A stretch of 40,898 nt of DNA from Crocinitomicaceae bacterium (lineage in GTDB: Bacteria; Bacteroidota; Bacteroidia; Flavobacteriales_D; Crocinitomicaceae), in the NCBI GenBank assembly GCA_023262855.1, contig JALQYQ010000025.1, positions 1 to 40,898 of the forward strand, written 5' to 3'. Positions within the stretch are counted from its first letter, which is position 1. Every line of letters begins with the position of its first letter. Positions 11,948 to 35,402 of this stretch are shown here, piece by piece. The notes under the pieces are model-generated. The model saw nothing but the letters and a program-made list of their open reading frames with translations. It had not been told where the DNA came from and made no database searches. The translations under genes were made by a program, and so were the position numbers.

Positions 11948-12029
11948 GTTTCTGCGCTAACGCTTGAAAATAATCGCAAGCTTCGCACAGGTTTCTGCGC
12001 TAACGCTTGAAAATAATCGCAAGCTTCGC
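11948..12029 (+). repeat. Perfect 39-bp direct repeat before the tRNA
   Basis: Two identical 39-bp copies lie at 11948-11986 and 11991-12029, separated by ACAG. Each contains GCTAACGCTTG and CAAGCTTCGC, which can form an imperfect hairpin around an AATAAT loop. The second copy ends 7 bp before the tRNA. Only two copies exist and the spacer is 4 bp, so it is not a CRISPR. Confidence 0.9.
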
Positions 12030-12110: not shown

Positions 12111-12113
12111 CAG

Positions 12114-12146
12114 AAAAAAGTCCAACCAAAGCGGTTGGACTTTTTT
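12114..12146 (+). terminator. Intrinsic terminator after the tRNA
   Basis: The perfect 8-bp stem GTCCAACC/GGTTGGAC has an AAAGC loop, flanked by six A residues upstream and six T residues downstream. It starts 4 bp after the tRNA, so it ends that transcript and insulates the beta-glucosidase gene. Confidence 0.93.
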
Positions 12147-12160
12147 CGTTTTCTTGATAG

Positions 12161-12181
12161 ATATTGTACAAATGACAATAT
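12161..12181. promoter_or_regulatory. Operator palindrome 1 (ATATTGT-N7-ACAATAT)
   Basis: This perfect inverted repeat has 7-bp arms and a 7-bp spacer and ends 35 bp before the GH3 start codon. The core TATTGT-N7-ACAATA recurs upstream of the repeat-protein gene and between the divergent GH-A operon and sugar transporter. The shared core, spacing and position in a single sugar locus support a common regulator, most likely the Nudix-like protein encoded directly after GH3. Confidence 0.8.
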
Positions 12182-12216
12182 TTAATTAACTTTCCCCATA
12201 TTTTACTCTTAGAAAA

Positions 12217-14526
12217 ATGAAAAAGTTAATCTTTTTGCTTGTAAGTTGCGTTAGCATTCTATTATTCATCTCGCCAAATAGTTTGTATGCTCAAGGATTT
12301 AATTCATCACTTGACTCGAAAATTGAAGATCAGATTACATCTATTTTAAGCAAACTTTCAATTGAGGAGAAGATCGGTCAAACGTGCCAGATCACCTTGG
12401 ATGCGATTCTTCAAGTTGATGAAAAAGGTTCAGTTATTTACCCTCATAAAATTGACCCTAAAAAATTGAATGAAGCACTTGAAAAATTCAAAATAGGATC
12501 TATTTTAAATGTTAGTTCGCACACCTTGACTTTAAAAGAATGGGAGTATATTTTATCAGAAATCCATTCAACATCAAAGAAAATGAAAAATTCAATTCCC
12601 ATCATTTATGGTATTGATGCCATACACGGAATGAATTATACAGTGGGAGGGACTCTTTTTCCTCAAGAAATAGGACTTGCAGCAACTTGGAATCGGTCGT
12701 TCGCAAAAAGTTTTGGTGAAATAACAGCCTATGAAATGCGTGCATCTGGAATTCCATGGAATTTCTCTCCAGTGCTAGATGTTGCCAGACAGCCGCTTTG
12801 GTCAAGGTCTTTTGAGACATTAGGTGAAGACCCTTTTTTAGCTGCTGAAATGGGGAAAGAATTGATAATTGGCTATCAAGGGAGTGGAACAATTGATGAA
12901 TATCATGGTGCTGCTTGTCTAAAACACTTTGTTGGCTACAGTCAACCGCTTTCTGGACGAGATAGAACTCCTGCTTGGATTCCAGAAAAATACATGCAAG
13001 AATTATTTTTACCGCCATTCAAAGCGGCAATTGATGCCGGAGCAATGACTGTGATGGTTAACAGTGGTGATGTTAATGGTATTCCAGGACACATTAATTC
13101 TTATTTATTGACGGATGTGTTGAAAGGAGAATGGGGATTTAAGGGTTTTGCGGTTTCTGATTGGGAAGATTTTATTATGCTCGAAACTGTTCATTCAGTT
13201 GCCGAAAATGCAGAAGATGCTGTTGTAATGGCATTCAATGCTGGAGTAGATATGAGCATGGTTCCTACAAGTCCAAATTACAAAACCTACTGTGATTTAA
13301 TGTTGAAAGCTGTTCAATCAGGTCGAATTTCTCAAGAGCGTTTGAACGATGCCGTTCGCCGAATCTTGCGTGTAAAGTTGAGTCTTGGGCTATTCGACAA
13401 AGATATGAATCAAGCAAAAAGCTATCCCTTGTTTGGGTCAAATGAATTTAAATTGGCCGCTCTAAAAAGTGCTGAGGAATCAATCACATTGTTGAAAAAT
13501 GAAGAGCAACTCTTACCATTGTCAACGACCAAGAAAATACTTGTTGCTGGTCCAACAGCCAATAACATGATTTATTTAAATGGTGCATGGACTCATACAT
13601 GGCAGGGATACGATTCAATATATAACACTAAAAATGTTGCAACGATTTATTCTGCAATTGAACAAAAGGTTGGAAAAGAAAACTGTCTTTATTCCCAAGG
13701 TGCGGAACTCTACTTTGAGAATGGATATGAAGAATCTCGCTTGACAGATGTATCGGATTTCAGCGAAAAAGCAAACCTGAGTGATGTTATTGTTTTATGT
13801 TTGGGAGAATTACCACAAACAGAAAAACCAGGAGATATTCGCTCATTGAATTTATCTGCAGCTCAAATTGAGTTAGCAAAAATTGCATATTCAACGAATA
13901 AACCAGTAATTCTTGTATTGACTGAAGCACGCCCTCGTATCATTCATTCTATTGTTGATTCAGCTTCGGCGATTGTGCAATGTTATCTTCCTGGTGATTT
14001 TGGTGGAACGGCACTTGCCAACATTCTATTTGGAGATGCAAATCCTTCAGGAAAATTACCTTATACCTATCCAAAATATGACGGTGTAATTGAGTTTTAT
14101 GATCATCCAAAAAGTGTCGACAGATCAAAAAACAATGATTTCAAAGCGTTTGATCCTGAATGGGAGTTTGGTTTTGGACTTAGCTACACGAATTTTGAAT
14201 ATTCGGATTTAAAAGTGAATAGAACCACAATTACTGATAATGAACAATTGCACATTTCTCTTAATGTGAAAAACACAGGCGAATTAAAAGGACAAGCAGT
14301 TGTTCAGATGTTTTTATCGGACAAGGTAAGTTCTTCGGTTCCAGCTGGTAAACGATTGAAAGGATTTGAAAAAATTACATTGGAACCTAATGAATCAAAA
14401 CGTGTCGATTTCACCATTTCAAAAGAAGATCTTATGTTTGCAGACCATAACGGAAAATGGATTTTAGAACCGGGAACTTTTTCAATTGAAATTGGCAGTT
14501 TAGAAACCACATTTGAATTAAAATAA
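12217..14526 (+). CDS. GH3 beta-glucosidase, periplasmic
   Basis: This 769-residue enzyme has a signal peptide (MKKLIFLLVSC... NSLYA, cut before QG; no lipobox at the cleavage site). The glycoside hydrolase family 3 barrel contains IPIIYGIDAIHG, the KHFVGYSQP motif and the nucleophile Asp315 in GFAVSDWEDF. The second alpha/beta domain has LGELPQTEKPGD (Glu531/Glu536, acid-base candidates) and LPYTYPKYDG, and a fibronectin-III-like C-terminal domain begins near residue 655. It should release glucose from the non-reducing ends of beta-gluco-oligosaccharides, most likely in the periplasm because it has no T9SS tail. It is preceded by operator 1 and followed after 11 bp by the Nudix-like regulator, so the two form one transcript. 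Confidence 0.94.
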   Translation: MKKLIFLLVSCVSILLFISPNSLYAQGFNSSLDSKIEDQITSILSKLSIEEKIGQTCQITLDAILQVDEKGSVIYPHKIDPKKLNEALEKFKIGSILNVSSHTLTLKEWEYILSEIHSTSKKMKNSIPIIYGIDAIHGMNYTVGGTLFPQEIGLAATWNRSFAKSFGEITAYEMRASGIPWNFSPVLDVARQPLWSRSFETLGEDPFLAAEMGKELIIGYQGSGTIDEYHGAACLKHFVGYSQPLSGRDRTPAWIPEKYMQELFLPPFKAAIDAGAMTVMVNSGDVNGIPGHINSYLLTDVLKGEWGFKGFAVSDWEDFIMLETVHSVAENAEDAVVMAFNAGVDMSMVPTSPNYKTYCDLMLKAVQSGRISQERLNDAVRRILRVKLSLGLFDKDMNQAKSYPLFGSNEFKLAALKSAEESITLLKNEEQLLPLSTTKKILVAGPTANNMIYLNGAWTHTWQGYDSIYNTKNVATIYSAIEQKVGKENCLYSQGAELYFENGYEESRLTDVSDFSEKANLSDVIVLCLGELPQTEKPGDIRSLNLSAAQIELAKIAYSTNKPVILVLTEARPRIIHSIVDSASAIVQCYLPGDFGGTALANILFGDANPSGKLPYTYPKYDGVIEFYDHPKSVDRSKNNDFKAFDPEWEFGFGLSYTNFEYSDLKVNRTTITDNEQLHISLNVKNTGELKGQAVVQMFLSDKVSSSVPAGKRLKGFEKITLEPNESKRVDFTISKEDLMFADHNGKWILEPGTFSIEIGSLETTFELK

Positions 14527-14537
14527 ACGCTACGAGC

Positions 14538-15233
14538 ATGCAAAATAGTGACTTAAAAAATTTCTTTACCTATTCATTTTCACTTGATTGTGTGATCTTT
14601 GGTTACCAGAATGGAAAAATTCACGTTCTTTTAATTAAACGCTCGATTGAACCATTTGAGAACTATTGGGCAATTCCCGGGGATTTAGTTTATCCAGATG
14701 AGGATCTTCCAGTAGCAGCAGAACGCATACTTTATGATTTAACTCGTTTAAAAAATATTGAACTACATCAAGCACAGACTTTTGGAAACCCAAATCGCCA
14801 TCCGCAAGGACGTGTTATAACTAACGCTTATTTTGCTCTAATTCGTATTGATGAGTTTCAAGCTGAAGCATCTTCTTGGGCAGAGGAAGTACTTTGGGTT
14901 CCAATTGATGAAGTACCAAATTTGGCTTTTGATCATAATTTAATTGTGAATTCAACCTACGAATTACTAAAACAAAAACTTACGTTTGAACCTATTTGTT
15001 TCGACCTTTTACCAGTTCGTTTTACACTGAATGAATTTCAACAACTCTATGAATTTGCATTTGATCAGGAAATGGACAAGGCAAACTTCAGAAAAAAAAT
15101 AAAGTACATTCCACTCATTGCTCATGATGAAAAACAACAAAATGTAAAACACAGACCTGCAAAGTTGTTCTCATTTAATGAAAAGCTCTATCACGAACAA
15201 GTTAAAAAAGGTATTTATCAATTTAGGATGTAG
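14538..15233 (+). CDS. Nudix-fold transcriptional regulator, NrtR/AraR-like
   Basis: In this 231-residue protein, residues 10-150 form a Nudix fold (YWAIPGDLVYPDEDLP) and residues about 155-231 match the winged-helix tail typical of NrtR-family regulators (FDLLPVRFTLNEFQQLYE, KANFRKKIKY, RPAKLFSF). The Nudix catalytic box is ruined: the REUXEE core reads ERILYD (62-67) and the first Glu is Asp54, so hydrolysis is unlikely and the fold probably binds a sugar effector. Related non-catalytic members control sugar genes in Bacteroidota (AraR). It is co-transcribed with GH3 behind operator 1, which suggests autoregulation. The three palindromes in this locus are its probable binding sites; repression relieved by a sugar is the inferred mode. 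Confidence 0.88.
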   Translation: MQNSDLKNFFTYSFSLDCVIFGYQNGKIHVLLIKRSIEPFENYWAIPGDLVYPDEDLPVAAERILYDLTRLKNIELHQAQTFGNPNRHPQGRVITNAYFALIRIDEFQAEASSWAEEVLWVPIDEVPNLAFDHNLIVNSTYELLKQKLTFEPICFDLLPVRFTLNEFQQLYEFAFDQEMDKANFRKKIKYIPLIAHDEKQQNVKHRPAKLFSFNEKLYHEQVKKGIYQFRM

Positions 15234-15278
15234 TGAACATTTTTAAAGTTTAATTGTTTTAACAAGAAATATTTTACC

Positions 15279-15299
15279 TTATTGTATTTTTTACAATAA
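15279..15299. promoter_or_regulatory. Operator palindrome 2 (TTATTGT-N7-ACAATAA)
   Basis: This perfect inverted repeat has 7-bp arms and an A/T spacer of 7 bp, 46 bp before the start of the T9SS repeat protein. A -7-like TATATTAG lies at 15307-15314, so a bound protein would cover the -33 region, consistent with repression. The core is identical to the sites at 12162-12180 and 24972-24990. Confidence 0.8.
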
Positions 15300-15345
15300 T
15301 TTAATTTATATTAGCTACACAATTTAAAACTTTAAATTAAAAACT

Positions 15346-16659
15346 ATGATTCTTAGAAGATTACACAATTTAAAAAGCGCTTTGCTTCTTTTAATTGGAT
15401 GTTGTGCTTTTGGAAGTTCTTTCGCACAAGATTTAATTATTACAACTGAAGTTTGTAATTCTGCAAACGAAGTTAGACTTACGGGACCTTGGTGGGGCTG
15501 GAACCCAGCAGGAGGACCTGTTGCAGTAAATAATGGAAATGGCACTTGGACATTCACGTTGTCACCGGCTCCAACTGCAGATATGGAATATTTATTGGTC
15601 GTTGATGGTGTTCAAGAGAATTTAATATCGGCTATGCAGAACGGTGGAACTTGTGCCCCGGTTACAGACTATTTTAGCTATGCAAATCGTAAATGGTTGA
15701 CTACTGACCCTTTAACAATTTCAAATACTTACGGTCAGTGTACGGCGTGTAATAACTTATTAATTAATGTTGACGTTTGTTCAGCTACAGCTCCTACTTC
15801 AGTAAGAATGACAGGGCCATTTTGGGGTTGGGATCCGAATGCAGGGCCAATCGCTAGTGCAAATCCAGATGGAACGTATACATTCTATTTGAATCCAGCA
15901 CCAACGACTGATATGGAATACTTAATAATTGTAGATGGTGTTCAAGAGAATTTAATTTCAGACATGCAAAACGGAGGTTCATGTGCACCAGTTACAGATT
16001 ATTTTAGTTATGCAAATAGAAAATGGGTTGTTGGATCAGGGGATGTTTCGATTAATTATGACCGTTGTGTACCATGCGATTATCCAGATTTAGTCATAAC
16101 AACAGAAGTATGTGATTCTGCTACACAAGTTAACTTAACAGGTCCAATATGGCAATGGAATCCAGCTTTTGGTCCTCAGGCAGTGGACAATGGTGACGGA
16201 ACATGGACATTTACAATTTCACCAGCACCAACAGATACTCTAGAGTATTTATTGGTAAAAGATGGTGTTATGGAAAATTTAATCTCTGAAATGGCTAATG
16301 GTGGTGGATGTGCACCAATTACGGATTATTCTACTTATGCAAATCGTCAATGGATCATTGGTCAAGGTGCAATCTCTAACACCTATGATCGCTGCAGTCC
16401 TTGTGCATTGGGAGTTGAAGAATTCAGTCAAATGGATGTTGCTATCTATCCGAATCCAACGAATGCGTTCATTACTTTGACAAGTTCAAAAGCAATTGAA
16501 AAAATTGAAGTTTATTCATTAGTTGGTGAATTAGTTCTTTCGACTGAAACAAACAAATTTGTTGTTGAACTAGATATTACTTCATTAGAAGCAGGTTTAT
16601 ATACTGTAAATGTTCATGGAGCAAACGGAATGCAAACTGCACGAATCGTGAAAAATTAA
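15346..16659 (+). CDS. T9SS-exported protein with three Cys-rich glucan-binding-like repeats
   Basis: This 437-residue protein has a signal peptide (cut near SSFA-QD), three tandem ~107-residue repeats (about 29-135, 138-244, 248-353) and a T9SS type A sorting domain (364-437, VAIYPNPTNAFITL). Each repeat has the pattern TGPxWxWNP, NGDGTWTF, PAPT, EYLLVVDGVQENLIS, CAP(V/I)TDY, YANR(K/Q)W and four matched cysteines (for example C37, C103, C132, C135), ending in CxxC. The aromatic WxW and the 'NGDGTWT...YLLVVDG' order resemble CBM20/48-type starch-binding sandwiches, but I cannot name the family. There are no catalytic residues. It lies behind operator 2 and next to a secreted GH16 endoglucanase, so surface capture of beta-glucan is the best inference. 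Confidence 0.85.
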   Translation: MILRRLHNLKSALLLLIGCCAFGSSFAQDLIITTEVCNSANEVRLTGPWWGWNPAGGPVAVNNGNGTWTFTLSPAPTADMEYLLVVDGVQENLISAMQNGGTCAPVTDYFSYANRKWLTTDPLTISNTYGQCTACNNLLINVDVCSATAPTSVRMTGPFWGWDPNAGPIASANPDGTYTFYLNPAPTTDMEYLIIVDGVQENLISDMQNGGSCAPVTDYFSYANRKWVVGSGDVSINYDRCVPCDYPDLVITTEVCDSATQVNLTGPIWQWNPAFGPQAVDNGDGTWTFTISPAPTDTLEYLLVKDGVMENLISEMANGGGCAPITDYSTYANRQWIIGQGAISNTYDRCSPCALGVEEFSQMDVAIYPNPTNAFITLTSSKAIEKIEVYSLVGELVLSTETNKFVVELDITSLEAGLYTVNVHGANGMQTARIVKN

Positions 16660-16678
16660 TTCATAATTAATTACCTTT

Positions 16679-16706
16679 AAGGAGGGCTTTTGCCCTCCTT
16701 TTTTTT
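16679..16706 (+). terminator. Intrinsic terminator between repeat protein and GH16
   Basis: The 9-bp stem AAGGAGGGC/GCCCTCCTT has a TTTT loop followed by eight T residues (16699-16706). It ends only 11 bp before the GH16 start codon, leaving no room for a separate promoter after it, so GH16 expression must depend on read-through or an internal promoter. Confidence 0.9.
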
Positions 16707-16717
16707 ACTCCATAAAA

Positions 16718-17731
16718 ATGAAAGCACTAGGATTTACAGTTACGGTTTTACTCATTAGTTTTCAATCTTATTCACAATGGGTAATGATTTGGAATGACGA
16801 GTTTGATAATTCAACGTTGGACAATTCGAAATGGGTTAACGATGTTGGAGGCAATGGTTGGGGGAACAACGAAGCGCAATATTACACTGCTGGGAATTCA
16901 AACCTGACAATTGCAAATGGAGAAGCAACATTTAGAGCAAAAGCTGAACAATTCGGCACGAATGAATATACATCCGTAAAGATTATTTCAAAAAATCTTT
17001 TTGATATTCAATACGGGAAAATTGAAGGCCGAATGAAATGTCCAATGGGGAAGGGGCTTTGGCCTGCCTTCTGGATGTTGGGTTCAAATATTGACACGGT
17101 TAGTTGGCCTGCTTGCGGTGAAATCGATGTAATGGAACACATCAATAGTGAAACAAAAATACATGGTACTGCCCACTGGGAGAATGTTGGTCATCAATAT
17201 TTAGGTGGAATCATAAATACAGATCCAACGGTATTTCATACTTATTCTATTACCTGGGATTCTACTTACATCAAGTGGTACATGGATGATCAATTGTATT
17301 ACCTAATAAATATTACCAATGGTACAAATGGAACTGAAGAATTTCATAAAAAGTTTTATTTGATTTTGAATTTAGCCGTTGGTGGTAATTGGCCAGGGTA
17401 CCCTGATGGTACAACTGTTTTTCCTGCAGACTTTGTTGTAGATTATGTTCGTGTTTACAAGGATCAATCTGAATTGACATTAGATGAGTTAGCAGCAAGT
17501 AATCTGCAGGTTTATCCAAATCCGACGAATGATATTTTAACGCTAGAAGGAATCAATGGGATGACATCGTTGAGTTATTCGATTTATAGTTTAAACGGCG
17601 AGAAATTAGCTGAAAGTACCCTAAAAGACGAAAATCCTATTGACGTATCTCATTTGACAAGTGGAATGTATATTCTTGAGGTTAAGAATGATGATGGAAC
17701 AACAAAACGGATCTCATTTTCAAAAAATTAA
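16718..17731 (+). CDS. GH16 endo-beta-1,3-glucanase (laminarinase-like), T9SS-exported
   Basis: In this 337-residue protein a signal peptide (residues 1-19) is followed by a GH16 jelly roll (about 21-248) and a T9SS type A sorting domain (263-337, LQVYPNPTNDILTL). The catalytic motif GEIDVMEH supplies the nucleophile Glu135, Asp137 and acid/base Glu140, in the bulged ExDxxE form typical of laminarinases. The substrate-cleft motifs WPAFWMLG and NLAVGGNWPG agree. It should cut beta-1,3(-1,4)-glucans outside the cell. It follows the three-repeat protein across a terminator and is closed by a bidirectional terminator. Exact linkage specificity cannot be read from sequence. Confidence 0.95.
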   Translation: MKALGFTVTVLLISFQSYSQWVMIWNDEFDNSTLDNSKWVNDVGGNGWGNNEAQYYTAGNSNLTIANGEATFRAKAEQFGTNEYTSVKIISKNLFDIQYGKIEGRMKCPMGKGLWPAFWMLGSNIDTVSWPACGEIDVMEHINSETKIHGTAHWENVGHQYLGGIINTDPTVFHTYSITWDSTYIKWYMDDQLYYLINITNGTNGTEEFHKKFYLILNLAVGGNWPGYPDGTTVFPADFVVDYVRVYKDQSELTLDELAASNLQVYPNPTNDILTLEGINGMTSLSYSIYSLNGEKLAESTLKDENPIDVSHLTSGMYILEVKNDDGTTKRISFSKN

Positions 17732-17742
17732 TCCCTCAAAAC

Positions 17743-17777
17743 AAAAAATGGCCAAAAGTACTTTTGGCCATTTTTTT
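17743..17777. terminator. Bidirectional terminator between convergent operons
   Basis: A perfect 34-bp palindrome (17743-17776) is centred on AAAAGTACTTTT, with GGCC blocks and flanking A6 and T7 runs. It can end transcription on both strands between GH16 (plus) and the CBM9-like gene (minus), which converge here. Confidence 0.93.
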
Positions 17778-17796
17778 ATGCATAAAAATTAGTTTC

Positions 17797-19056
17797 CTAT
17801 TTGAGTCGAATTCTCCCCCATTTACTTGGTGATAAATGAAAACCTTCCGTTGAAACACTGTTCCATCGGTCTTGTTGCTTTCTTACATTTGCTTCAGAAC
17901 CAAGATCAATGGCTAATTCAAAGCCGAATGATGATCCACTTAACAAGGTTTTCGAATAGATTTCTTTAACAGGAAGCGCTAGTTCTAAGAAATAACCATT
18001 TTCTTCAGGTTTTAACTTATAGTTGACTGAATTTAACGCTGTATTTCGTTTGAAATCCCACGCGTACGTTTCAGCCCCACAATTAATACCAATGTGCTGA
18101 TCACTTAGTAAATAATAGTTTCTTTTTTCATCTGCTTCAGTGTTTGTTGCAAAAGCAATTTCAACAGCATCCCCTTTCCATAAATCAGCTCCTTTATTGA
18201 TATTTTGTAGGGCCGAAGAATCTTTTACATGTACACCAATGTATAAAACATCTGAAGTATAATACAGTGCCATTTGATGCCCACCAACAATTTCAGTGAA
18301 TTCTGAAGTTTTCCAATCAGAGGATTCTCCATCTATTTGAATATTCGATTTGCTCGGTGTAACAATTATTTCCTCTTTCAGTTTTCGAGAAAAAGGAACA
18401 AGTTGAATCGAGTTGATTTCAATCTTACCTTCAGAAAATAACTGAACAATTAATTGTTTCACATTGAACAAATCAAAATCATTCTCTTCGAATGGAAAAA
18501 GCGACATAGGAATTTCCACTTTTGTCCATTCGGTTCCTATTTCTTTTGCTAACAAAAATGACTTGTTGTAGCCCAGCCAAGCTTGATTTCCTGAATAATC
18601 CTCAAAACCAAATGCCCAAGGTATATTTGTAAATGGTTTACTAGTAGAACGAACCATCAGTTGAATCGCTAAGGTATCTCGAACAGCTGCCATGTCTTTT
18701 CCCGTCCACATATCCCATCCATAGCCCATTCCGACCCAATCACACCCATCTTGATCTTTGTTCCATTTCACTTGTAAAAACGTATCTTTTACATCTGTTT
18801 TCATTGACAAAGAAATACAATTCACATTATTTGTTGACCAGATTTCTTCACTAAAAGCATTGTCAAAAATCAGTAATTGATCAAAACCTCTAATGGAATA
18901 GCTTTGCGCAATCTCCTCGTCATAGAGCGAAAGCGGTTTAACTATTTTCCGCTTGGGCATGACGGTAACGTCCTTTAATTTAACGAACTTTTGAATGGAA
19001 TCTTGACCAAACGATAGTGTTGAAATTAATAGAATACCGCTAAAAATTAATTTCAT
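17797..19056 (-). CDS. Secreted protein with CBM9-like sugar-binding domain
   Basis: This 419-residue protein has a signal peptide (MKLIFSGILLISTLSFG, cut before QD). Residues about 30-220 form a beta-sandwich rich in Trp (GMGYGWDMWTGKDMAAV, WAFGFEDYSGNQAWLGY) that looks like a carbohydrate-binding module. Residues about 228-419 match the CBM9/DOMON-like pattern (IQIDGESSDW, ALYYTSDVLYIGVHVKD, LWKGDAVEIAFATN, ELALPVKEI, WGRIRLK). No catalytic pair, T9SS tail or lipobox is seen. It is the last gene of the five-gene minus-strand operon, 3 bp after the lipoprotein gene, and should hold glucan fragments in the periplasm or at the outer membrane. Family assignment of the first half is uncertain. 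Confidence 0.8.
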   Translation of the reverse strand: MKLIFSGILLISTLSFGQDSIQKFVKLKDVTVMPKRKIVKPLSLYDEEIAQSYSIRGFDQLLIFDNAFSEEIWSTNNVNCISLSMKTDVKDTFLQVKWNKDQDGCDWVGMGYGWDMWTGKDMAAVRDTLAIQLMVRSTSKPFTNIPWAFGFEDYSGNQAWLGYNKSFLLAKEIGTEWTKVEIPMSLFPFEENDFDLFNVKQLIVQLFSEGKIEINSIQLVPFSRKLKEEIIVTPSKSNIQIDGESSDWKTSEFTEIVGGHQMALYYTSDVLYIGVHVKDSSALQNINKGADLWKGDAVEIAFATNTEADEKRNYYLLSDQHIGINCGAETYAWDFKRNTALNSVNYKLKPEENGYFLELALPVKEIYSKTLLSGSSFGFELAIDLGSEANVRKQQDRWNSVSTEGFHLSPSKWGRIRLK

Positions 19057-19059
19057 AGC

Positions 19060-20061
19060 TTAAGGATTCAAAGGTGCATTTTCCGTAAAAATCATGTAAT
19101 CCAATTTAGCTTTAGCGAAACCTGAAACTGGATTAGCCAAATGAAGCATATTGATAGTTTTGATTTTATTCGATTGATGTGTTCCCTCACCATTTGGAGC
19201 TGCTGGAGAACCATTCACTAAACAAGGAATATCGCTGTATTTAATGCTTACCATTTTCCAACCAACCCAATCAACTGTGACTTGCAAAGAATACATATCT
19301 TCTGAAGCACTCGTAAATGCTCCGTCACCATTTTCATCCTCTTCAAATTGAAACAATACAAGACTGTTCGTCAGTCCTGGTTCACCGTATATCATGACAT
19401 TAAAATAGACGTTATTTGGATTAGATGACAAAGGAAACGTCGATGCACCGTATGCACTCGCGTTAAAATTAACCAAGCCAATTAACCAATCCCAATCAAC
19501 CGTTCCTGCCATGTTGTAATAGGAATTTCCTTCTGGGGCTGAAACATCTGATTTAATTTGAAAATCCATGTTCGCACCAGCTTGTACGAATGATGTCCAA
19601 CCACCATTAAATCCTGTTTCAAAATCGGAAATTAAAAACCCAGTATTTGTTTTTGGAGCCAAGACCTTTACATAAACGGTCATCGTATCAGGTTCATTTG
19701 TAAATGTTAAATCTACCTTACACATTTCCGCTTTAAAGATTGGTAAGTTGGTCGTGTTTCCTGTCCACAAACTTTGACTCACATCAATTGAACTGCTCAA
19801 TCCAGTAATTTCCTTCACAGCACCACTTGTTTGACCAGTAATAGTGATTTTCCAAGCACTGGTTTTCGATAAATCAGCTGTGAAATAGACACTTTCTCCA
19901 GCAGCAAAATCTACAGAATCTTGACTCGCTTGTAAACTGTTGATGATTACAAAAGCGCCATTTAAATCTTGTAACGAAGGTCCATCAAATTGATTCACTT
20001 CATCTTTTCGACAAGCAACAAGGCCTAATCCTAGAACGAATAAAAAAAGATATTTTTTCAT
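19060..20061 (-). CDS. Surface glycan-binding lipoprotein candidate
   Basis: This 333-residue protein has a lipoprotein signal ending in LVAC (lipidated Cys17) followed by RKDEV. A Lys-Asp/Glu-Asp/Glu run just after the cysteine matches the surface-export signal known from Capnocytophaga/Flavobacterium lipoproteins, so it is probably outside the outer membrane. Residues about 30-130 look like a PKD/Ig-like spacer. Residues about 140-333 form an aromatic-rich beta-sandwich (SDFETGFNGGWTSF, VDWDWLIGLVNF, DWVGWKMVSIKYSDI) like carbohydrate-binding modules. By position it would fill the SusE/F-type role in an operon lacking SusC/SusD. It is separated from both neighbours by 3 bp. Confidence 0.8.
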   Translation of the reverse strand: MKKYLFLFVLGLGLVACRKDEVNQFDGPSLQDLNGAFVIINSLQASQDSVDFAAGESVYFTADLSKTSAWKITITGQTSGAVKEITGLSSSIDVSQSLWTGNTTNLPIFKAEMCKVDLTFTNEPDTMTVYVKVLAPKTNTGFLISDFETGFNGGWTSFVQAGANMDFQIKSDVSAPEGNSYYNMAGTVDWDWLIGLVNFNASAYGASTFPLSSNPNNVYFNVMIYGEPGLTNSLVLFQFEEDENGDGAFTSASEDMYSLQVTVDWVGWKMVSIKYSDIPCLVNGSPAAPNGEGTHQSNKIKTINMLHLANPVSGFAKAKLDYMIFTENAPLNP

Positions 20062-20064
20062 AAC

Positions 20065-21756
20065 TTAAAATTTCATGATGTAGTAAATATAAAACTGATT
20101 GTAACGATATGAACTTACTGAACTAAAGGAGTTTGTATTACTTTCATAAATTGCAGCAAGGTAAATGGATGGCGTAAAATTATATTTCAATCCACCCGCT
20201 AAACATAATTCTTCTCCACTAATGTTCATTGCTGTATAGTTGATTATCTCACCTTCAGCGTTTCGAACAGGCATCGACTCATTTCCTTTACTTTTGAAAT
20301 AATAGCTATTCGCTAATAAATAAAGATCTTCCACCAATTCCATTTCTAACCCTAAATTTAAGGTAGTGGATTTCAAAGCTATTTGTTCGAATGCTAAATC
20401 ACTTGTTCGTTTGGTATCTTGAAACGCAAACCCCGCTGTCAATTTTTGTTCTTTTTTCCAATTAAAAATGTTTGAGAAATTGAATTCTAAGGTTGAATTG
20501 ATCGAATTGAACGAACGTAGTTTTGTTGTACCTTGTCCACGCACTTCTCCTAAACGATAATAATTCGCGTCAAGTTTTACACTTTTCTGTTTATTTGAAA
20601 CTGTCAATCCCGCAAATAATCCACGACGATTAAAGGTAGCGATTCCATAAGGCAATACATTATTTACAGCAGGATTATACGCCATAATTCCAGTTGTGAT
20701 CGAATTAGAATAAAGTGTTGGATCATTGTATAAGTCATAATTTGACAATGGACGAATAATTTGATCATTGGTATAACGTTCGTAGAAGTTATTCAGTTGG
20801 TTGAAATCAACACGTTTGCTTTGTGCACCAAAACTTCTGAAATCAGCACCATTATCCATGTAACCAAGATGAACTTTTAATCCAGATTTTTTATTCTGAA
20901 AATTCGCTTGAACATTGATGAAATAATCCTTTAATCCACCGGTCGTATCTAAACTGAGGGCACTAGACGAAATTCCAGATTCTCCGCTAATTCCAAAAAT
21001 GTTCTTTTTCAAATCGAGCGTCGCTTTATAGCTAACTGAACTAACATTATTGCGATAAGCATTGTCATTCAGTGCTGTATTCTTAAGATCGAAAATACTT
21101 ACATGATTAAATCCAAGCGTCAAGTATTTACTCTGCGTGAAAATCACGTTTCCACCGCCGTACAAGCGCTCTAGGATATTACCCAAATTACTTGGATTCA
21201 AACGTGTAATGAAGGCATTTACTTTAATTTCATCTACCACTTTCGGGAATTGAAGTGCAAAATCAATTGCGGCTCCTTGCTGGCGCCATGTATTGTTTTT
21301 GTAAAACGATTCGTAATTAAGTACTTCTTCTTTTATCTTTAAAACTGAACTGGATTGCACCAATAAGTCAGCATTGTGATTGTAGAACGTGTAAGGCGTT
21401 AATTTATAATCAATGTTTCCAATTTGATAACGCAAAGCATTCTTCACCACTCCTTTAACATACAATTGACGAACATCAAATGTGACGCCGCTGCCCCAAA
21501 ATCCGCCAAAGGCATTTTTTATACGCACCATTCCAAGAATTTCGGTAGAAGCATTTGGATTAATTTTAAAGCCCAAATCGATCAAGGCGTAACCACCTGA
21601 ATTTTTACGACTTGTAACTGTGTCTTCCTGATCTGAACTAAAATCTGCATTTGAAATAATAGAACGTGCCCCTCCAACATATTGCACCTTCTTGTCTTCC
21701 TGAGAAAAAGAGCTAACTGCAATAAGCGTGATGATAACTGTGAGAATATTTTTCAT
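20065..21756 (-). CDS. Outer-membrane beta-barrel protein (563 aa)
   Basis: A signal peptide (MKNILTVIITLIAVSSFS, cut before QE) is followed by alternating polar/aromatic strands throughout (YQIGNIDYKLTPYTFYN, NVQANFQNKKSGLKVHLGY, NQFYIYYIMKF). The terminal Phe is the classical outer-membrane assembly signal. I recognise no named family; it has no TonB box or plug domain, so it is not a SusC. Its start codon directly abuts the stop codon of the preceding barrel gene, so the two are translationally linked and may form a pair. A role as oligosaccharide porin is inferred from the operon. Confidence 0.78.
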   Translation of the reverse strand: MKNILTVIITLIAVSSFSQEDKKVQYVGGARSIISNADFSSDQEDTVTSRKNSGGYALIDLGFKINPNASTEILGMVRIKNAFGGFWGSGVTFDVRQLYVKGVVKNALRYQIGNIDYKLTPYTFYNHNADLLVQSSSVLKIKEEVLNYESFYKNNTWRQQGAAIDFALQFPKVVDEIKVNAFITRLNPSNLGNILERLYGGGNVIFTQSKYLTLGFNHVSIFDLKNTALNDNAYRNNVSSVSYKATLDLKKNIFGISGESGISSSALSLDTTGGLKDYFINVQANFQNKKSGLKVHLGYMDNGADFRSFGAQSKRVDFNQLNNFYERYTNDQIIRPLSNYDLYNDPTLYSNSITTGIMAYNPAVNNVLPYGIATFNRRGLFAGLTVSNKQKSVKLDANYYRLGEVRGQGTTKLRSFNSINSTLEFNFSNIFNWKKEQKLTAGFAFQDTKRTSDLAFEQIALKSTTLNLGLEMELVEDLYLLANSYYFKSKGNESMPVRNAEGEIINYTAMNISGEELCLAGGLKYNFTPSIYLAAIYESNTNSFSSVSSYRYNQFYIYYIMKF

Positions 21757-23604
21757 TTAAAAGTAGATTTTTAATTCAACTGTTGTTTCTGTACCATTGT
21801 AATGATCAAGTGAAAAACTACGGTCTTGGTAGTTCATCCAGCGATGTTTTATATAGAGTCCTGTATTTTTTGCTAATTGCAAATCAAGTCCGATTGCGTA
21901 AGAAAGCCCTTCTTGATTTTTCGCTTTATTGCTTACTACATCTAACACCGTTTGATCGTTCGCAATAATTCGATCGTAACCAAAATAATTGGAAAGAATA
22001 ACTTTCGGGAAGAGCAAATAATAAAACTCCAACTGGTTATTGTACGATTGCAAATAGGCCTTTTGTGAGTAGTTTGGTAGAGCAGAAAATTTCGACTGAA
22101 CACTGTGCATTCCACCTAAATAAAAGACCAAAAGATCTTTACCAAACAGTTTAAACTCAGTTTTGTAACTAATTTCTAATGAATTGAATCCTTTTGCCGT
22201 AATTGAATCTGTAATTTGGACAGTTTCATATACACCTCGATAAATTTTATTTAAGTTATCGTATGGTCCAACCCCTGCAGGAAAGCCCCAACGCCAGAAG
22301 CGCGACAATGCCAAATTATTTGCAGGATGCCCGTAAGTGATTTTGTCAGACAAGGCTACAATTTCACTCGCAGCGCTATAACCAACAGTTAATTTGTGTT
22401 TTTTTAATGCCATGTCCATGTTTAAAATCACACCGCGACGATTGTTGGTCATTTGTCCGATTGAAACAAGAGAACTAGCAAATGGAATCAAAGAAGTTTG
22501 ACTTCCAGGCGTTGCTTCACCTGTGAAATTGTCGTTGTATTCTTGAATTGATGAATTCCAAAATACACCGTTGTTGTTTATCACATTCGGACTAATTTGA
22601 AAGTAACGGACCTCTAAAGGAAAATGTGTCCATTCTTTGGAGAATTGAAGTTTGATGTCCAAGGCCTCTCCCCACTTTCCTGTTGCTGTTGGACTGAAAT
22701 AATTTCCAGTTCCAACTTCACCCAACAACTGCATTTCTTTCCAAATCAGTTTAAATTCGGACGTCACTAAATTATATCCTAATGCCAAACGCGCCAAACT
22801 ATCTGTATACGTTTTACTTGAAATACCGTTAATGCTAACAAAATTGTTCTTGAATTCCTTTTTAATTTTTCCAGCCATTAAAGCGTTTGGAGTTGGCAAT
22901 GCGCCACCATTGAATTGCGATTTACCATACATATAAGCAAACGAAAATTGCTTTGGTAAACGCACTCCGTCAAGAATAAATCCTTGAAATGCTTGTTGTC
23001 CCCAACGCGTATCTTGTGTTAATGCGCCATCTGAATAAAATTTGTGGTAGCGATCATAAACTGATTTCATTGCTGGATCCCATGGATTGCGCTCAAAAAC
23101 ACTAAAACGATTGTATCCAGTATTTGATGCAAATGTAAACGGGCTAATCGTGTACCAATGAATACCACCTGTGCGAACACTAAATGTTCCGTACTTTGTA
23201 GAATGCGTTCCGGTAAGATTAACTCCTAAATTAAGGCCTTTCACATAATCCGTTTGACTTCCTGACATCGGTGTCCACAAATACAAATCTGTTGAAAATG
23301 AAGTTGTTTTACTCGGTCGTCCGCCAATTGTAAGCATCAACTGTGGAATATTACTATCATCACCCAAGAAAACACGATTTTTTACATCGCCAAACTCAGG
23401 ATATTGATCTTTCATTTGTGTGTAGCAACCTAAAAAGCGATAATATCCTGAAACACTGATGGTATTCATCATTGCTTCCATCTTCTTTGGGTACAATCCA
23501 CTATTCTTTGGAACGAAAGCCGAAGTATCGATCAGTTGTGCTTTTGAATTGATAGAAACCAAACAAAGCACCAGAAAAACGAAGGTTGATTTTTTATTCC
23601 TCAT
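21757..23604 (-). CDS. Outer-membrane beta-barrel protein (615 aa)
   Basis: A signal peptide (MRNKKSTFVFLVLCLVSINSKA, cut before QLID) and a long run of amphipathic strands (VSGYYRFLGCYTQ, TTSFSTDLYLWTPM, LSYAIGLDLQLAKNTGLYIKHRW) end in TTVELKIYF with a terminal Phe, so this is an outer-membrane barrel. No plug domain or SusD neighbour is present. It overlaps the end of the GH-A glycosidase gene by 11 bp and abuts the next barrel gene, so all three are co-translated. The family is not recognised. The likely job is passage of glucan fragments, though a structural or binding role is possible. Confidence 0.78.
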   Translation of the reverse strand: MRNKKSTFVFLVLCLVSINSKAQLIDTSAFVPKNSGLYPKKMEAMMNTISVSGYYRFLGCYTQMKDQYPEFGDVKNRVFLGDDSNIPQLMLTIGGRPSKTTSFSTDLYLWTPMSGSQTDYVKGLNLGVNLTGTHSTKYGTFSVRTGGIHWYTISPFTFASNTGYNRFSVFERNPWDPAMKSVYDRYHKFYSDGALTQDTRWGQQAFQGFILDGVRLPKQFSFAYMYGKSQFNGGALPTPNALMAGKIKKEFKNNFVSINGISSKTYTDSLARLALGYNLVTSEFKLIWKEMQLLGEVGTGNYFSPTATGKWGEALDIKLQFSKEWTHFPLEVRYFQISPNVINNNGVFWNSSIQEYNDNFTGEATPGSQTSLIPFASSLVSIGQMTNNRRGVILNMDMALKKHKLTVGYSAASEIVALSDKITYGHPANNLALSRFWRWGFPAGVGPYDNLNKIYRGVYETVQITDSITAKGFNSLEISYKTEFKLFGKDLLVFYLGGMHSVQSKFSALPNYSQKAYLQSYNNQLEFYYLLFPKVILSNYFGYDRIIANDQTVLDVVSNKAKNQEGLSYAIGLDLQLAKNTGLYIKHRWMNYQDRSFSLDHYNGTETTVELKIYF

Positions 23605-24934
23605 CGAATGATTTTAGTGTTTGTTCTTTAAAATGAATGCGCTCTGCATTGTTCCCAGGTTCCACATAAAACGGAATGTTCATGTAAGCTAATTTCTCAC
23701 CGTCGTATACTTTTACAAACAGACGGTACCTTCCTTCTTTCAACGGAGCTTTCAATTGCACACTTGCTTGATTTTTCCCTTTTAATCTTCCATTGATAAT
23801 TGGCGGTTTCATTTCAGCATCACCTCCTGATTTTAAGTCGGTACTTTCTGGATAAAGTTCCCACGTATAATTGAGTTTATCTTGATTTAGATCTGTTGCA
23901 AAAAGTTCGAATGAATAGCTTGTATTCGCTTTAACAATACAATTTGGCGCCAATTTCTGTTCATTGAAATAAATGGAATCAATACGAGGAGCTCTGTTTG
24001 TTGGGTAAGCACCAGACCAACAAAACGTCAGTTCATCAATGGCTTCAGTTGGAATTCCATCTTCGTTAAAGAGTCCGTACCATGTGCTTGTATATTCCTG
24101 CTTTTGTCCCCACAAAAATGCAAACGAACCAATGCACTGAGCACTGTCCGCTGCAATACAAGTTTGATAACGTTTTAGGTAAACAGCCGCTTTTTCGGAA
24201 CTAGTTTGTTCAATGGACATTCCCCAAATCGTTTTAGGAGATTCCCAATGTCCGTTTGGTCCCCATTCAGTGATCATGTAGGCACCTGTGTAATTTCCAT
24301 TCGTCAAAACGCCTTTTACAGATTCAATGTCACCATAGGTATTGATTCCGTAGATATCAACTTCAGTCAAAATGGTTTTAACAAAGTTCAATTTTTCAGC
24401 ATTTGTACCTGCAGTAACTGTCGAAGTGGGATGATTCTTATCTTCTTCGTGAACCATTTTTGCGATATCGTTCACCGCAGCCCATACTTTTGTATTCGAA
24501 TATTCTAATTCGTATTCATTTCCAACTCCCCACATTAACAAGGCTGGATGATCTTTGTATTTACGCACTGCTGTGCGAAATCCTTCTAATTGATTCTTAA
24601 TTTTTTCTTGATCGTTGTAATCAAAGCCATGACGCTCATGTTGCACCCACAATCCGAGCATCACCTTTAAACCGTTTTTTTCTGCTTCGTCTAATATTGC
24701 CTGTGCATTTTCAATTCCCCATGTACGTATTGTGTTTCCACCGCAAGCTTTTACAACATCCATTTGAACAGTTCCACCTGCACCTCGAATATAAAACGGC
24801 TCATTATTTACACGCAATTGCCACTTACTATTTTCTTTCGTAATCGTAACTTTTCGAACTTGCCCACTGACATGACCAATCAATAATAGGTTAAAGCAGA
24901 AGAATACGAACAAAGCTGTTTTTTTCATTAGCAC
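23594..24934 (-). CDS. Clan GH-A glycoside hydrolase (GH2/GH5-like barrel)
   Basis: In this 446-residue protein, after a signal peptide (to about residue 24, cut before QVRK), a short strand region (WQLRVNNEPFYIRGAGG) leads into an (alpha/beta)8 barrel. The clan-A catalytic pair is visible: acid/base Glu140 in MWGVGNEYELE and nucleophile Glu223 in MITEWGPNG, 83 residues apart. Residues about 315-446 form an Ig-like beta-sandwich (RAPRIDSIYFN... YRLFVKVYDGEKLAY). The barrel resembles the catalytic core of GH2 enzymes without their N-terminal sandwiches; which CAZy family it belongs to cannot be settled by eye. It is the first gene behind operator 3 and has no T9SS tail, so it is probably periplasmic. 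An ATG at 24928 is an equal alternative start. Confidence 0.85.
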   Translation of the reverse strand: MLMKKTALFVFFCFNLLLIGHVSGQVRKVTITKENSKWQLRVNNEPFYIRGAGGTVQMDVVKACGGNTIRTWGIENAQAILDEAEKNGLKVMLGLWVQHERHGFDYNDQEKIKNQLEGFRTAVRKYKDHPALLMWGVGNEYELEYSNTKVWAAVNDIAKMVHEEDKNHPTSTVTAGTNAEKLNFVKTILTEVDIYGINTYGDIESVKGVLTNGNYTGAYMITEWGPNGHWESPKTIWGMSIEQTSSEKAAVYLKRYQTCIAADSAQCIGSFAFLWGQKQEYTSTWYGLFNEDGIPTEAIDELTFCWSGAYPTNRAPRIDSIYFNEQKLAPNCIVKANTSYSFELFATDLNQDKLNYTWELYPESTDLKSGGDAEMKPPIINGRLKGKNQASVQLKAPLKEGRYRLFVKVYDGEKLAYMNIPFYVEPGNNAERIHFKEQTLKSFDEE

Positions 24935-24971
24935 GATTATTAGCGTTTTGTTGGCAATTAGAATAATAACT

Positions 24972-24990
24972 TATTGTAATTTGTACAATA
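24972..24990. promoter_or_regulatory. Operator palindrome 3 (TATTGT-N7-ACAATA), divergent region
   Basis: This perfect inverted repeat has 6-bp arms and a 7-bp spacer. It lies 37 bp upstream of the GH-A operon start on the minus strand and 137 bp upstream of the FHS transporter on the plus strand. One site in a 193-bp divergent gap could control both directions, though it is placed better for the minus-strand operon. Confidence 0.8.
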
Positions 24991-25127
24991 TTAAAATTTA
25001 TTTTTAATTTTCACAACTTAAACTTCACAAATGGTAGGTTTCAATCTTACAAATGTTTGAGTTTATTTACAGTTAAATATACTGAAGAACAGTTAACAAA
25101 GGAAATAGTTTCATTAAACAAAAAATC

Positions 25128-26936
25128 ATGGCGAACGAAAAACAACCATCAACAAATTACAATGCTTTGGCAACTTTGTCAAGTGTCTTTTTTTTCTGGG
25201 GTTTTATTGCAGCTGGAAACAGTGTGTTTATTCCTTTTTGTAAAAATTACTTTCACTTAGATCAATTTCAAAGTCAATTAATTGATTTTGCATTTTATTT
25301 AGCCTATTACTTAGGAGCTTTGTTATTATTCATTCTTAGTTCTGCATTCGGTAAAGATTATGTTGCTCGTTGGGGTTATCGAAAAAGTATCGTTTACGGA
25401 TTATTGTTTTCTGCCTTTGGCTCAGCAGCGATGATTGTCTCCGTCTATGCGAATTTATTTCCAGGAATGTTGCTCGGATTATTCATAGTAGCTTTGGGTT
25501 TTTCCTTGCAACAAACTTCTGCTAATCCTTTTATGATTTTGATTGGAGACGAACGTACAGGTGGAAATCGAATCAGTTTTGGTGGAGCAATAAACAGCCT
25601 TGGAACCACTATCGGACCATTGATTGTTGCCTTAGCTTTATTCGGTACTTCAGCTGCCATAAGTGACGATATGATTAAATCCTTGTCGCTTACAAAAGTT
25701 ATTATTCTTTATGCGTGCGTTGGAATGTTGTTCGTTGGTGTTTCAGCATTATTTGCCCTTTCGAAAAATCTTCCAGACGGAAAGTTAGTCGAACAAACAG
25801 CAAGTGAACCGCTCGAAAAATCGCCCAAAGCGATGTTAACGTTGTTGGTTATGACCTTGTTTTTAGCGATTTGTTTTATTCCAGTTTTCAGCAGTTACAA
25901 AAGTGATTCAGCAATTAAGATTAGCAAATTAGAACAAGAATGTGACTCTATTGCGAAAATGGATACCCTATTCGATGCGAAGAAGAAAAATTCACCTGAA
26001 ATCATTCTAAATCACAATCAATACAAACATGATATTGCAGAAATTAAATCAGATGTTCACCTATTAAAGGAGCCTTTAGAAATGAATCGTTTGATGTGGT
26101 TGAGCACTGGTTTGTTGGTTATTCTATCAGGAATTTTCTTTGCATTTTTCCGCGGCAGTAAACAACAAACCGGCTGGGGTGCAATGCGCTATCCACAATT
26201 ATCGTTGGGGATGCTGGCCATTTTTGTTTACGTTGGTGTTGAGGTTGCAGTCGGAAGTAATTTAGGTGAATTGTTAAAACAAAAATCATTTGGATCACAT
26301 AGTTCTTCGCAAATTGCGCCGTACATCGCCATGTTCTGGGGAAGTTTAATGATCGGACGCTGGTCTGGCGCCATCAATGCTTTTGACTTATCTGATAAAC
26401 TAAAAATGCGCTTAAAAATAATCGTTCCAATTGCAGCATTTGGACTTGTACTCGGTCTTACATGGATTTCTGGTTATTCAATTGAAGCTTTGTATTGGTA
26501 TGTTGCGTGTGTTGTAGTTCAGTTAATAGCGTTTATTGTAACAAATGACAAACCAGCTTTAACCTTAAGTGTTTTTGGAATATTAGGCGTACTTGCAATT
26601 TTAATCGGAATTAACACTTCGGGTACTATCGCTATATACGCATTCCTGTCATGTGGTTTGTTTTGTTCAATCATGTGGCCTTCCATTTTCTCTCTTTCAT
26701 TAGCCGGACTCGGTAAGTATCAAGCTCAAGGTTCCGCATTTTTGGTAATGATGATTTTAGGTGGTGCAATCATTCCTCCAATTCAAGGTAAATTATCCGA
26801 TGTACTTGGTATTCAGTTTTCCTTCATCATCGGTGGGGTATGCTTTTTATACTTAACGCTTTTTGCGTTAATTGTGAGAAGTCTTCTAAAAAAACAAGGT
26901 GTTTCATTAGATGATTCTGGAAGTCACGCGCATTAA
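25128..26936 (+). CDS. FHS-family sugar:H+ symporter (FucP/GluP-like)
   Basis: This 602-residue major facilitator carries fucose/glucose/galactose (FHS) signatures: FFFWGFIAAGNSVFIPF in TM1, ALGFSLQQTSANPFMILIGDE, NSLGTTIGP, and a C-terminal FSLSLAGLGKYQAQGSAFLVMMILGGAIIPP. It should import a monosaccharide, most likely glucose released by GH3 and GH16, across the inner membrane. FucP-type carriers are about 410-440 residues; this one has a hydrophilic, coiled-coil-like insertion (about 255-320, KISKLEQECDSIAKMD) between helices plus extra helices. It is divergent from the GH-A operon and shares the gap holding operator 3. I chose the start MANEKQPS because helix 1 follows at the normal distance. 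Confidence 0.9.
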   Translation: MANEKQPSTNYNALATLSSVFFFWGFIAAGNSVFIPFCKNYFHLDQFQSQLIDFAFYLAYYLGALLLFILSSAFGKDYVARWGYRKSIVYGLLFSAFGSAAMIVSVYANLFPGMLLGLFIVALGFSLQQTSANPFMILIGDERTGGNRISFGGAINSLGTTIGPLIVALALFGTSAAISDDMIKSLSLTKVIILYACVGMLFVGVSALFALSKNLPDGKLVEQTASEPLEKSPKAMLTLLVMTLFLAICFIPVFSSYKSDSAIKISKLEQECDSIAKMDTLFDAKKKNSPEIILNHNQYKHDIAEIKSDVHLLKEPLEMNRLMWLSTGLLVILSGIFFAFFRGSKQQTGWGAMRYPQLSLGMLAIFVYVGVEVAVGSNLGELLKQKSFGSHSSSQIAPYIAMFWGSLMIGRWSGAINAFDLSDKLKMRLKIIVPIAAFGLVLGLTWISGYSIEALYWYVACVVVQLIAFIVTNDKPALTLSVFGILGVLAILIGINTSGTIAIYAFLSCGLFCSIMWPSIFSLSLAGLGKYQAQGSAFLVMMILGGAIIPPIQGKLSDVLGIQFSFIIGGVCFLYLTLFALIVRSLLKKQGVSLDDSGSHAH

Positions 26937-31501: not shown

Positions 31502-31524
31502 CCTCTAACCTAACAATTTTATTT

Positions 31525-35247: not shown

Positions 35248-35329
35248 TTGTAGTGTTTGCATTAGTGTTTTGGAGTGGCTTCGTGAAATATTCCCACGCA
35301 CGCTAAATATATAAAATGCAAACGCCTTG

Positions 35330-35349
35330 AATATTAGTGAACTAATATT
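35330..35349. repeat. Palindrome AATATTAGT-GA-ACTAATATT
   Basis: Nine-base arms around GA lie about 83 bp upstream of the glycine-rich adhesin start, in a 155-bp AT-rich gap. It could be an operator or a chance AT-rich palindrome. I see no second copy. Confidence 0.45.
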
Positions 35350-35402
35350 AACTAGGCTTTAATTATCAAAGTGGCTATCAGAAATAATATATTGAATTGT
35401 AC

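Follow-up and report, generated by a model that had tools for sequence, protein, structure and literature searches.

Within the NrtR family of Nudix-like regulators, the closest described relative of the protein examined here is BtAraR of Bacteroides thetaiotaomicron. As described in the structural report (PMC4666351), BtAraR contacts its operator, GTGT-N7-ACAC, through helix residues Asp178, Lys179, Arg180, Asn181, Arg183 and Lys184, while the DNA-contact residues of the AraR branch are given as Lys179, Arg180, Asn181, Lys184, Lys204 and Arg205. In that report, side chains are stated to occupy the phosphate and base spaces of BtAraR, and the protein with its sugar adopts a form unsuited to DNA binding. 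A further Bacteroides protein of the same family and phylum, XylR (BT0791), is a predicted sugar regulator according to two reports (PMC3878776, PMC4666351). The present analysis concerns a sugar locus in a 40,898-nt stretch of DNA (contig JALQYQ010000025.1 of Crocinitomicaceae bacterium assembly GCA_023262855.1; hereafter, the window), in which a gene for a 231-residue NrtR/AraR-type protein accompanies three copies of the palindrome TATTGT-N7-ACAATA. To our knowledge, the switching of glycan loci in Bacteroidota outside the gut is poorly known.

We assign a probability of roughly 0.85 to the reading that this protein binds TATTGT-N7-ACAATA and represses the three transcription units behind the sites. 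The evidence is comparative throughout, much of it being derived from fragmented assemblies, and we infer binding, repression rather than activation, and the identity of the effector from sequence comparison. No description of such a regulon was found in the literature searched (NrtR or Nudix in combination with laminarin, beta-glucan, Entner-Doudoroff or glucose), a search that could have missed an earlier prediction.

Operator sites in the window and the genome

The first-pass annotation had proposed three perfect palindromes with an equal 7-bp spacer at three promoters of one locus, and exact matches were confirmed at 12162-12180, 15280-15298 and 24972-24990 (operators 1, 2 and 3, respectively; no strand assigned). 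The arms of the three palindromes are identical and their spacers differ (ACAAATG, ATTTTTT and AATTTGT). Operator 1 ends 36 bp upstream of the start codon of a glycoside hydrolase (GH) family 3 gene, operator 2 ends 47 bp upstream of that of a gene encoding a secreted repeat protein (the CBM-repeat gene), and operator 3 is located 37 bp from a gene encoding a 446-aa GH-like protein and 137 bp from a divergent major facilitator superfamily (MFS) transporter gene.

Five exact copies were found in the whole genome (3.28 Mb in 73 contigs), compared with none for the reversed control. A second-order Markov model, trained on ~94 kb of the same genome, gave expectations of 0.82 copies genome-wide and 0.010 in the window (P ~2e-7 for at least three in the window). 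The search for unrelated genomic copies thus returned two outside the locus, on contigs C18 and C37, both within open reading frames and with G+C-rich spacers. Degenerate versions of the motif are little commoner than expected, as would be the case for chance palindromes in A+T-rich promoter DNA: with two mismatches, the window holds 10 sites against 5.9 in shuffled sequences (9 of 100 shuffles reach 10), and with one mismatch, the genome holds 30 sites against 18 for the control. Because the looser motif scarcely exceeds its shuffles and control, only near-exact sites are informative, and the looser motif, which drowns at two mismatches in the window and at one in the genome, was dropped as a signal. 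For the exact sites, the window P value and their recurrence in relatives, where exact permuted controls gave zero (see below), argue strongly against chance, the probability of which we consider negligible.

The consensus -7 element of Bacteroidota promoters is TAnnTTTG. Candidate elements matching five of its six defined positions were observed on the + strand just 3' of operator 1 (TAACTTTC, 12187-12194), 3' of operator 2 (TATATTAG, 15307-15314) and on the MFS side of operator 3 (TATTTTTA, 24999-25006), the opposite side of operator 3, facing the 446-aa GH-like gene, reaching just four of six. Among 21 sites, 12 carry a -7-like element directly 3', compared with 4.4 in shuffles (p 0.0015, the sites being partly related). 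An alternative is an activator that needs the sites, or a dual-acting protein. Sites that end 36-47 bp before three start codons and adjoin -7-like elements fit the blocking of RNA polymerase, and it is the sugar-bound form of BtAraR that is unsuited to DNA binding (PMC4666351); activation or dual action is considered unlikely.

A Nudix-like regulator with an impaired catalytic motif

The regulator gene (14538-15233, + strand) follows the GH3 gene (12217-14526) on the same strand as the second gene of the operon behind operator 1, in agreement with the co-transcription that had been proposed. Its standing as the sole regulator in the locus likewise held: family searches with the ten genes at 12217-26936 matched no second regulator. 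Elsewhere in the window, regulatory genes encode a response regulator (5722-6093) and a small helix-turn-helix protein (10270-10689).

Domain searches identified a Nudix domain (PF00293, 38.7 bits, cut-off 21.1) and an NrtR winged helix (PF21906, NrtR_WHD, 64.8 bits, cut-off 27), and the protein also scored above the cut-off of the AraR C-terminal domain model; the N-terminal Nudix-like and C-terminal winged-helix architecture of the NrtR family is present. Conversely, the NAD-type NrtR model NF050029 (ADPR responsive repressor) gave 142 bits against a cut-off of 400. Residues 48-72 (GDLVYPDEDLPVAAERILYDLTRLK) form an impaired Nudix signature, with ERILYDLTR replacing the REUXEEXGU portion of GX5EX7REUXEEXGU, and, judged by these residues, the Nudix catalytic core is destroyed.

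The predicted structure (mean predicted local distance difference test score 89.3) contains a helix at 181-187, the recognition helix comprising D180, K181, A182, N183, F184, R185 and K186. Four of the six AraR-branch contact residues are kept; Arg180 is replaced by Ala182, and Lys204 aligns with His205 in a gapped loop. The linkage to arabinose genes that marks AraR was not observed, the window instead holding GH3, GH16 and GluP-like MFS genes. Orthologous loci hold the same genes, SusC/D and zwf.

Recurrence of the operator near orthologous regulators

Searches of 99 genomes, the window's own included, returned 66 with some match to the regulator, and orthologues of at least 60% identity were found in 24, all of the window's own family. 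Among 18 named records at 60-74% identity, 10 carry the name of Crocinitomicaceae or one of its genera and 5 are unclassified Flavobacteriales, the remaining labels being Chitinophaga pinensis (2) and Bacteroidetes (1). Nearby sites were counted for 37 distinct orthologues, with 29 permuted half-sites as controls. The exact site was found near 19 of the 37 orthologues, compared with 0/37 for each of the permuted half-sites, and with one mismatch allowed it was found near 26 (control mean 1.6, control maximum 8). Orthologues have mostly retained the motif along with the regulator: TATWGT is present on both arms near 28/37 orthologues (31/37 if the outermost letter may be A). The related palindrome TATAGT-N7-ACTATA occurs 15 times in 60 genomes, with seven copies within 300 bp of such a regulator (~0.0065 expected), and the copy near the regulator is the sole genomic one in five genomes (G008, G009, G010, G013 and G024).

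A de novo search for all six-base gapped palindromes (spacers 0-18) was also performed in the intergenic DNA around 126 regulators of the family. The half-site TATTGT at spacer 7 recurred in 23 loci, the next spacer-7 half-sites being TATAGT and AAGTGT (five loci each) and TAGTGT and TTGTGT (three each). ATTGTA and TTATTG were also frequent, at spacers 5 and 9, respectively, but represent the same sites in shifted register, and no half-site at unrelated spacers was found in more than six loci. Operators of the family apparently have a GT-N7-AC core in common and differ in their outer letters. Recurrence near orthologues (19/37 vs 0/37), together with the spacing of the BtAraR operator, gives good support to the earlier proposal that the regulator governs the sites.

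Sugar operons of Bacteroides carry a second palindrome beside the AraR and XylR sites (PMC3878776), a precedent for another regulator, Crp-like or LacI-type, binding the palindromes while the Nudix-type gene is a mere neighbour. That second palindrome, TATGTTnTAnAACATA, is unlike TATTGT-N7-ACAATA. Moreover, the sites track the regulator gene across genomes, their letters go with its recognition helix (see below) and the solved AraR-DNA complex shows an identical spacing, so that control by another protein appears very unlikely.

Recognition helix and operator letters

The helices of the regulators were compared with the operator letters for the 60 of 126 family members in which both arms of the best site agree in bearing T or in bearing G. 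Helix type agrees with the third half-site letter in 58 of these 60: members with helices DKA, NKA, DKG or DTR have T in 31/31 cases, whereas G is found in 27/29 members with KR or RR. At the fourth letter, NKA is associated with A and DKA with T in 20/21 cases, a count that excludes one NKA member with mixed letters (L053) and in which the palindrome AAAAGT was used to score one NKA member out of four, with a TATAGT site also adjoining. In genome G013, two orthologues 2.6 kb apart (L048) have helices NKA and DKA and are adjacent to TATAGT-N7-ACTATA and TATTGT-N7-ACAATA, respectively. The agreement between helix and operator is suggestive.

As a separate observation, seven DRR-type members are accompanied by sites of the TTGTGT/TTGCGT type. 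The neighbours of the three that were checked are phosphoribosyl pyrophosphate synthetase-like, macro-domain and NAMPT-like genes, and the DRR-type members are likely NAD-type NrtR proteins.

Predicted extension of the regulon in relatives

In genome G046, the regulator gene is located 3' of a GluP-like gene and the site precedes a SusC-SusD-PKD-GH16-GH3 array; four further loci resemble this arrangement, with the site before a gene of ~1030 aa whose family was unscanned. In genomes G006, G016 and G025, the site is located between a gluP-like gene and a relative of the 446-aa GH-like gene (here termed GH446 after the length of its protein, not a CAZy family), at a distance from the operon that contains the regulator. 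G016 and G025 have it on a different contig, and in G006, whose transporter passes the gluP cut-off (203.8 vs 202.55), it is 27 kb away on the same contig. In the orthologue-bearing genomes G011 and G012, an exact site was found 36 bp upstream of zwf-pgl-edd. In G012, this site is on a different contig from the regulator, and in G011, the operon, which runs on into eda and gap, shares contig and strand with GH16-GH3-regulator and with a pair of large genes occupying the SusC/D position.

The context of 20 sites remote from a regulator was retrieved. Six precede GH446, GluP or GH3 genes, two precede zwf, and three precede genes for secreted proteins with checked type IX secretion system (T9SS) tails, a further one being similar with its tail unchecked; eight are inside or between other genes, including one each from G048 and G053, both without an orthologue. 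In the secreted-protein group, the proteins of L196 (2039-3004), L206 (3078-4403) and L208 (3022-3846) have similar starts and are encoded directly 3' of an exact operator; those of L206 and L208 have T9SS tails and match no other family. All three are candidate glucan-binding proteins.

The first-pass annotation had described the regulon as one of beta-glucan genes. This description stands for the glucan-enzyme promoters and is too narrow for relatives, in which the regulon would extend to glucose catabolism (zwf-pgl-edd). As the same operator precedes glucan loci, gluP-like transporters and zwf-pgl-edd, the regulon appears to couple glucan breakdown to glucose catabolism.

A paralogue beside zwf

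The window's genome contains one further family member, on contig C27, which is 42% identical to the regulator and is encoded between a divergent BadF-type kinase gene and zwf-pgl-edd, with gap beyond the kinase gene (L070, 7021-13850). TAGTGT-N7-ACACTA occurs once in this genome, before that gap gene; since the reversed control occurs twice, its copy number is uninformative and its place alone is telling. A site of the TAGTGT or AAGTGT type, palindromic at 4-5 of its 6 positions, was found 78-92 bp before zwf in 12 genomes or records. A family member is present beside zwf in all 12, with helix DKR in all seven retained in the helix list, the other five having been dropped from it as near-duplicates.

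Conversely, an exact TATTGT-type site precedes zwf in G011, G012 and G090, a degenerate one precedes it in G079, L084 and G035, and no zwf-adjacent family member was found in any of these six. Where zwf has no adjacent hexose paralogue, it is the glucan regulator's letters that are observed in 6/7 cases. A scan of the zwf upstream regions revealed no clear site of either type in G000, G006, G040 and G059, TAGTGT-N7-ACGTAA being seen by eye before zwf in G000.

A scheme in which up to three NrtR-type paralogues per genome within one bacterial family (NAD salvage, hexose catabolism and glucan use, with all three in genome G024) are distinguished through one or two bases in a shared GT-N7-AC operator, read by helix residues 178-180 (BtAraR numbering), is in our estimate evenly balanced between right and wrong. 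Under this scheme, the zwf promoter of genomes without the hexose paralogue would bear the glucan regulator's letters, which would unite polymer breakdown with the Entner-Doudoroff pathway in one glucose-sensing regulon.

In Mucilaginibacter, Pedobacter and Flavihumibacter records, genes for related KR-type regulators were observed in divergent orientation to a group made up of a pfkA-like, a small and a gap-like gene (four loci; family models were run for the pfkA and kinase of L131 only). This arrangement suggests NrtR-type control of glycolysis in these records.

Sugar pocket and candidate effector

BtAraR forms hydrogen bonds to L-arabinose through Arg34, Arg86 and His131, all three of which are kept as R35, R87 and H133 in 27/27 orthologues. 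The pocket pair Asp49-Leu50 is likewise present in 27/27 orthologues, in 14/14 and 7/7 members of the next groups and in 9/9 zwf-linked paralogues. The DRR-type members have Gly-Phe or Gly-Leu at these positions, and Gly-Phe was dropped as a mark of arabinose because these NAD-like proteins share it. The same pocket change is thus seen in two paralogues that are both linked to glucose use, which suggests D-glucose or a close relative as effector, an identification to which we give about even odds.

The same regulator and sites could instead respond to glucose-6-phosphate, 6-phosphogluconate, 2-keto-3-deoxy-6-phosphogluconate, laminaribiose, cellobiose or another monosaccharide. The exact and degenerate operators before zwf would make a pathway intermediate a natural signal, and a phosphate ligand, ADP-ribose, is bound by related NrtR proteins. 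On the other side, no variation is seen here in the residues with which BtAraR holds free L-arabinose, and side chains fill the phosphate and base spaces in BtAraR; an effector other than free glucose is considered a substantial possibility, though a less probable one.

Proposed mechanism and its weighing

Sites placed before -7-like elements, a regulator gene within a site-bearing operon and the precedent of BtAraR make an autoregulated, sugar-released repressor the simplest reading. In the proposed mechanism, the regulator, a relative of BtAraR that joins a winged helix to a catalytically inactive Nudix sensor, would occupy TATTGT-N7-ACAATA as a sugar-free dimer at three promoters, beside the -7 element. 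Transcription would thereby be blocked for its own GH3-regulator operon, the CBM-repeat/GH16 unit and the divergent pair formed by the 446-aa GH-like operon and the MFS gene. A glucan product, most likely D-glucose or a close derivative, would enter the Nudix pocket and shift the winged helices, releasing the DNA. In relatives, the same operator before SusC/D-GH16-GH3, gluP-like transporters and zwf-pgl-edd would join glucan breakdown to glucose catabolism.

Several observations weigh against this reading. A good site is lacking in the vicinity of six of the 37 orthologues; three of them (L055, L084 and L089) have an exact site farther away within the same fetched locus, one (G056) has an exact copy at some place on another contig, and two (L075 and L085) are encoded on short contigs. 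In G003, G017 and G019, a GH3 relative has no site in the preceding 1.5 kb, a GH16 gene intervening before it in G017 and G019. In the de novo search, the spacer-7 palindrome total was the highest (177 vs 99 in shuffles), but spacers 14 and 16 exceed their shuffles by at least as large a factor; spacer 7 was dropped as an outlier in total palindrome number, and weight is placed on the recurring half-site alone. Of the 126 regulators, 66 remained unscored in the helix comparison (52 without a site and 14 with other or mixed letters), and 40 of the 71 KR-type members have no site, making up 40 of those 52. The tree gives one or two independent contrasts per helix-letter association, and one for D/N versus T/A, for which reason no significance is claimed for the co-variation. 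Furthermore, Asp49 is also present in 25/63 other KR-type members, a minority of which had their targets examined, and G046 has a weak TAGTGT-type site before zwf in a genome with no zwf-linked regulator.

Loss of the regulator in G003, G017, G019 and G020, which have a GH3 relative and no orthologous regulator, was also considered and set aside, as it is not separable from an assembly gap: the GH3 match reaches the contig end, or within a few bases of it, in each.

Gene content of the locus and its surroundings

The first gene of the rightward operon behind operator 1 encodes the GH3 beta-glucosidase-like enzyme (12217-14526, + strand; PF00933 and PF01915), for which BglX and other models were all below their cut-offs. 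Behind operator 2, the CBM-repeat gene (15346-16659, +) encodes a secreted protein with three similar units and a T9SS sorting tail (PF18962 above cut-off; carbohydrate-binding module CBM_48, CBM48, weak and below cut-off), followed by a GH16 glucanase-like enzyme with a T9SS tail (16718-17731, +; PF00722 at 71.6 bits, and PF18962). The leftward operon at operator 3 begins with the 446-aa GH-like gene (23594-24934, - strand; Glyco_hydro_2_C at 29.5 bits, cut-off 21; Cellulase below cut-off). It continues on the same strand with conserved proteins of 615 aa (21757-23604) and 563 aa (20065-21756), here labelled OMP615 and OMP563, which matched no Pfam or NCBIfam family and are conserved in relatives, and with a protein weakly similar to CBM11 (19060-20061; match below cut-off), ending with a CBM9-like protein (17797-19056; PF06452). 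On the other side of operator 3, the GluP-like MFS transporter (25128-26936, +) scored 175 bits with the gluP model, below the cut-off of 202.55.

No substrate-specific enzyme model passed its cut-off in the window. The designation of the locus as a beta-glucan regulon hence derives from its GH16 and GH3 genes and not from any such model, and beta-glucan as the substrate is inferred from membership of these two families. The outer-membrane location of OMP563 and OMP615 is a guess from reading their sequences. The GH446-OMP615-OMP563-CBM11-like-CBM9-like cassette was observed, whole or for the most part, beside the regulator in five families (seven loci), and the OMP615/OMP563 cassette proteins may represent a glucan uptake system.

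Upstream of the locus, two exact 39-nt direct repeats (11948-12029), present nowhere else in the genome, precede a tRNA-Met gene, and a 15-nt terminator-like inverted repeat is located between this gene and operator 1 (12113-12147). Downstream, a tryptophan-halogenase-family flavoprotein (26971-28452) adjoins the sugar locus, followed by large repetitive surface-type proteins (28517-40869). A scan of one of these (40171-40869) identified PKD domains together with a CHU_C type IX secretion domain.

Comparison with known systems

The locus provides a predicted regulator, operator and testable sugar for a glycan locus of non-gut Bacteroidota, and a way to predict the operators of other Nudix-like genes adjoining sugar loci. 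It may also represent a case of paralogous regulators kept separate by small changes in one recognition helix, and it suggests that such Nudix-like regulator genes would be misread if taken as hydrolases.

BtAraR (BT0354; PDB 5bs6, 5dd4, 5ddg and 5deq) was the top sequence match of the regulator (phmmer E 5e-49) and occupied Foldseek ranks 1-6 against its model (template modelling score 0.78-0.84), with 35-39% identity in the structural alignment. The two proteins have in common an impaired Nudix box, the sugar hydrogen-bonding Arg/Arg/His residues and the GT-N7-AC operator spacing. They differ in that the intercalating Arg180 of BtAraR is Ala182 in the regulator, in the half-site (GTGT in BtAraR, TTGT here), in the pocket (Gly48-Phe49 in BtAraR, Asp49-Leu50 here) and in the neighbouring genes, which are glucan and glucose genes here and arabinose genes for AraR. 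XylR serves xylose genes and is likened to the regulator by family, phylum and its predicted role in sugar regulation. NrtR of Shewanella oneidensis (3gz5, 3gz6 and 3gz8; Foldseek ranks 7-9) has the same two-domain layout, but this and other NAD-type NrtR proteins are associated with ADP-ribose and NAD genes, unlike the glucan regulator. By these comparisons of sequence and predicted fold, the regulator is a new branch, with a new operator, within the known NrtR family and not a new kind of regulator.

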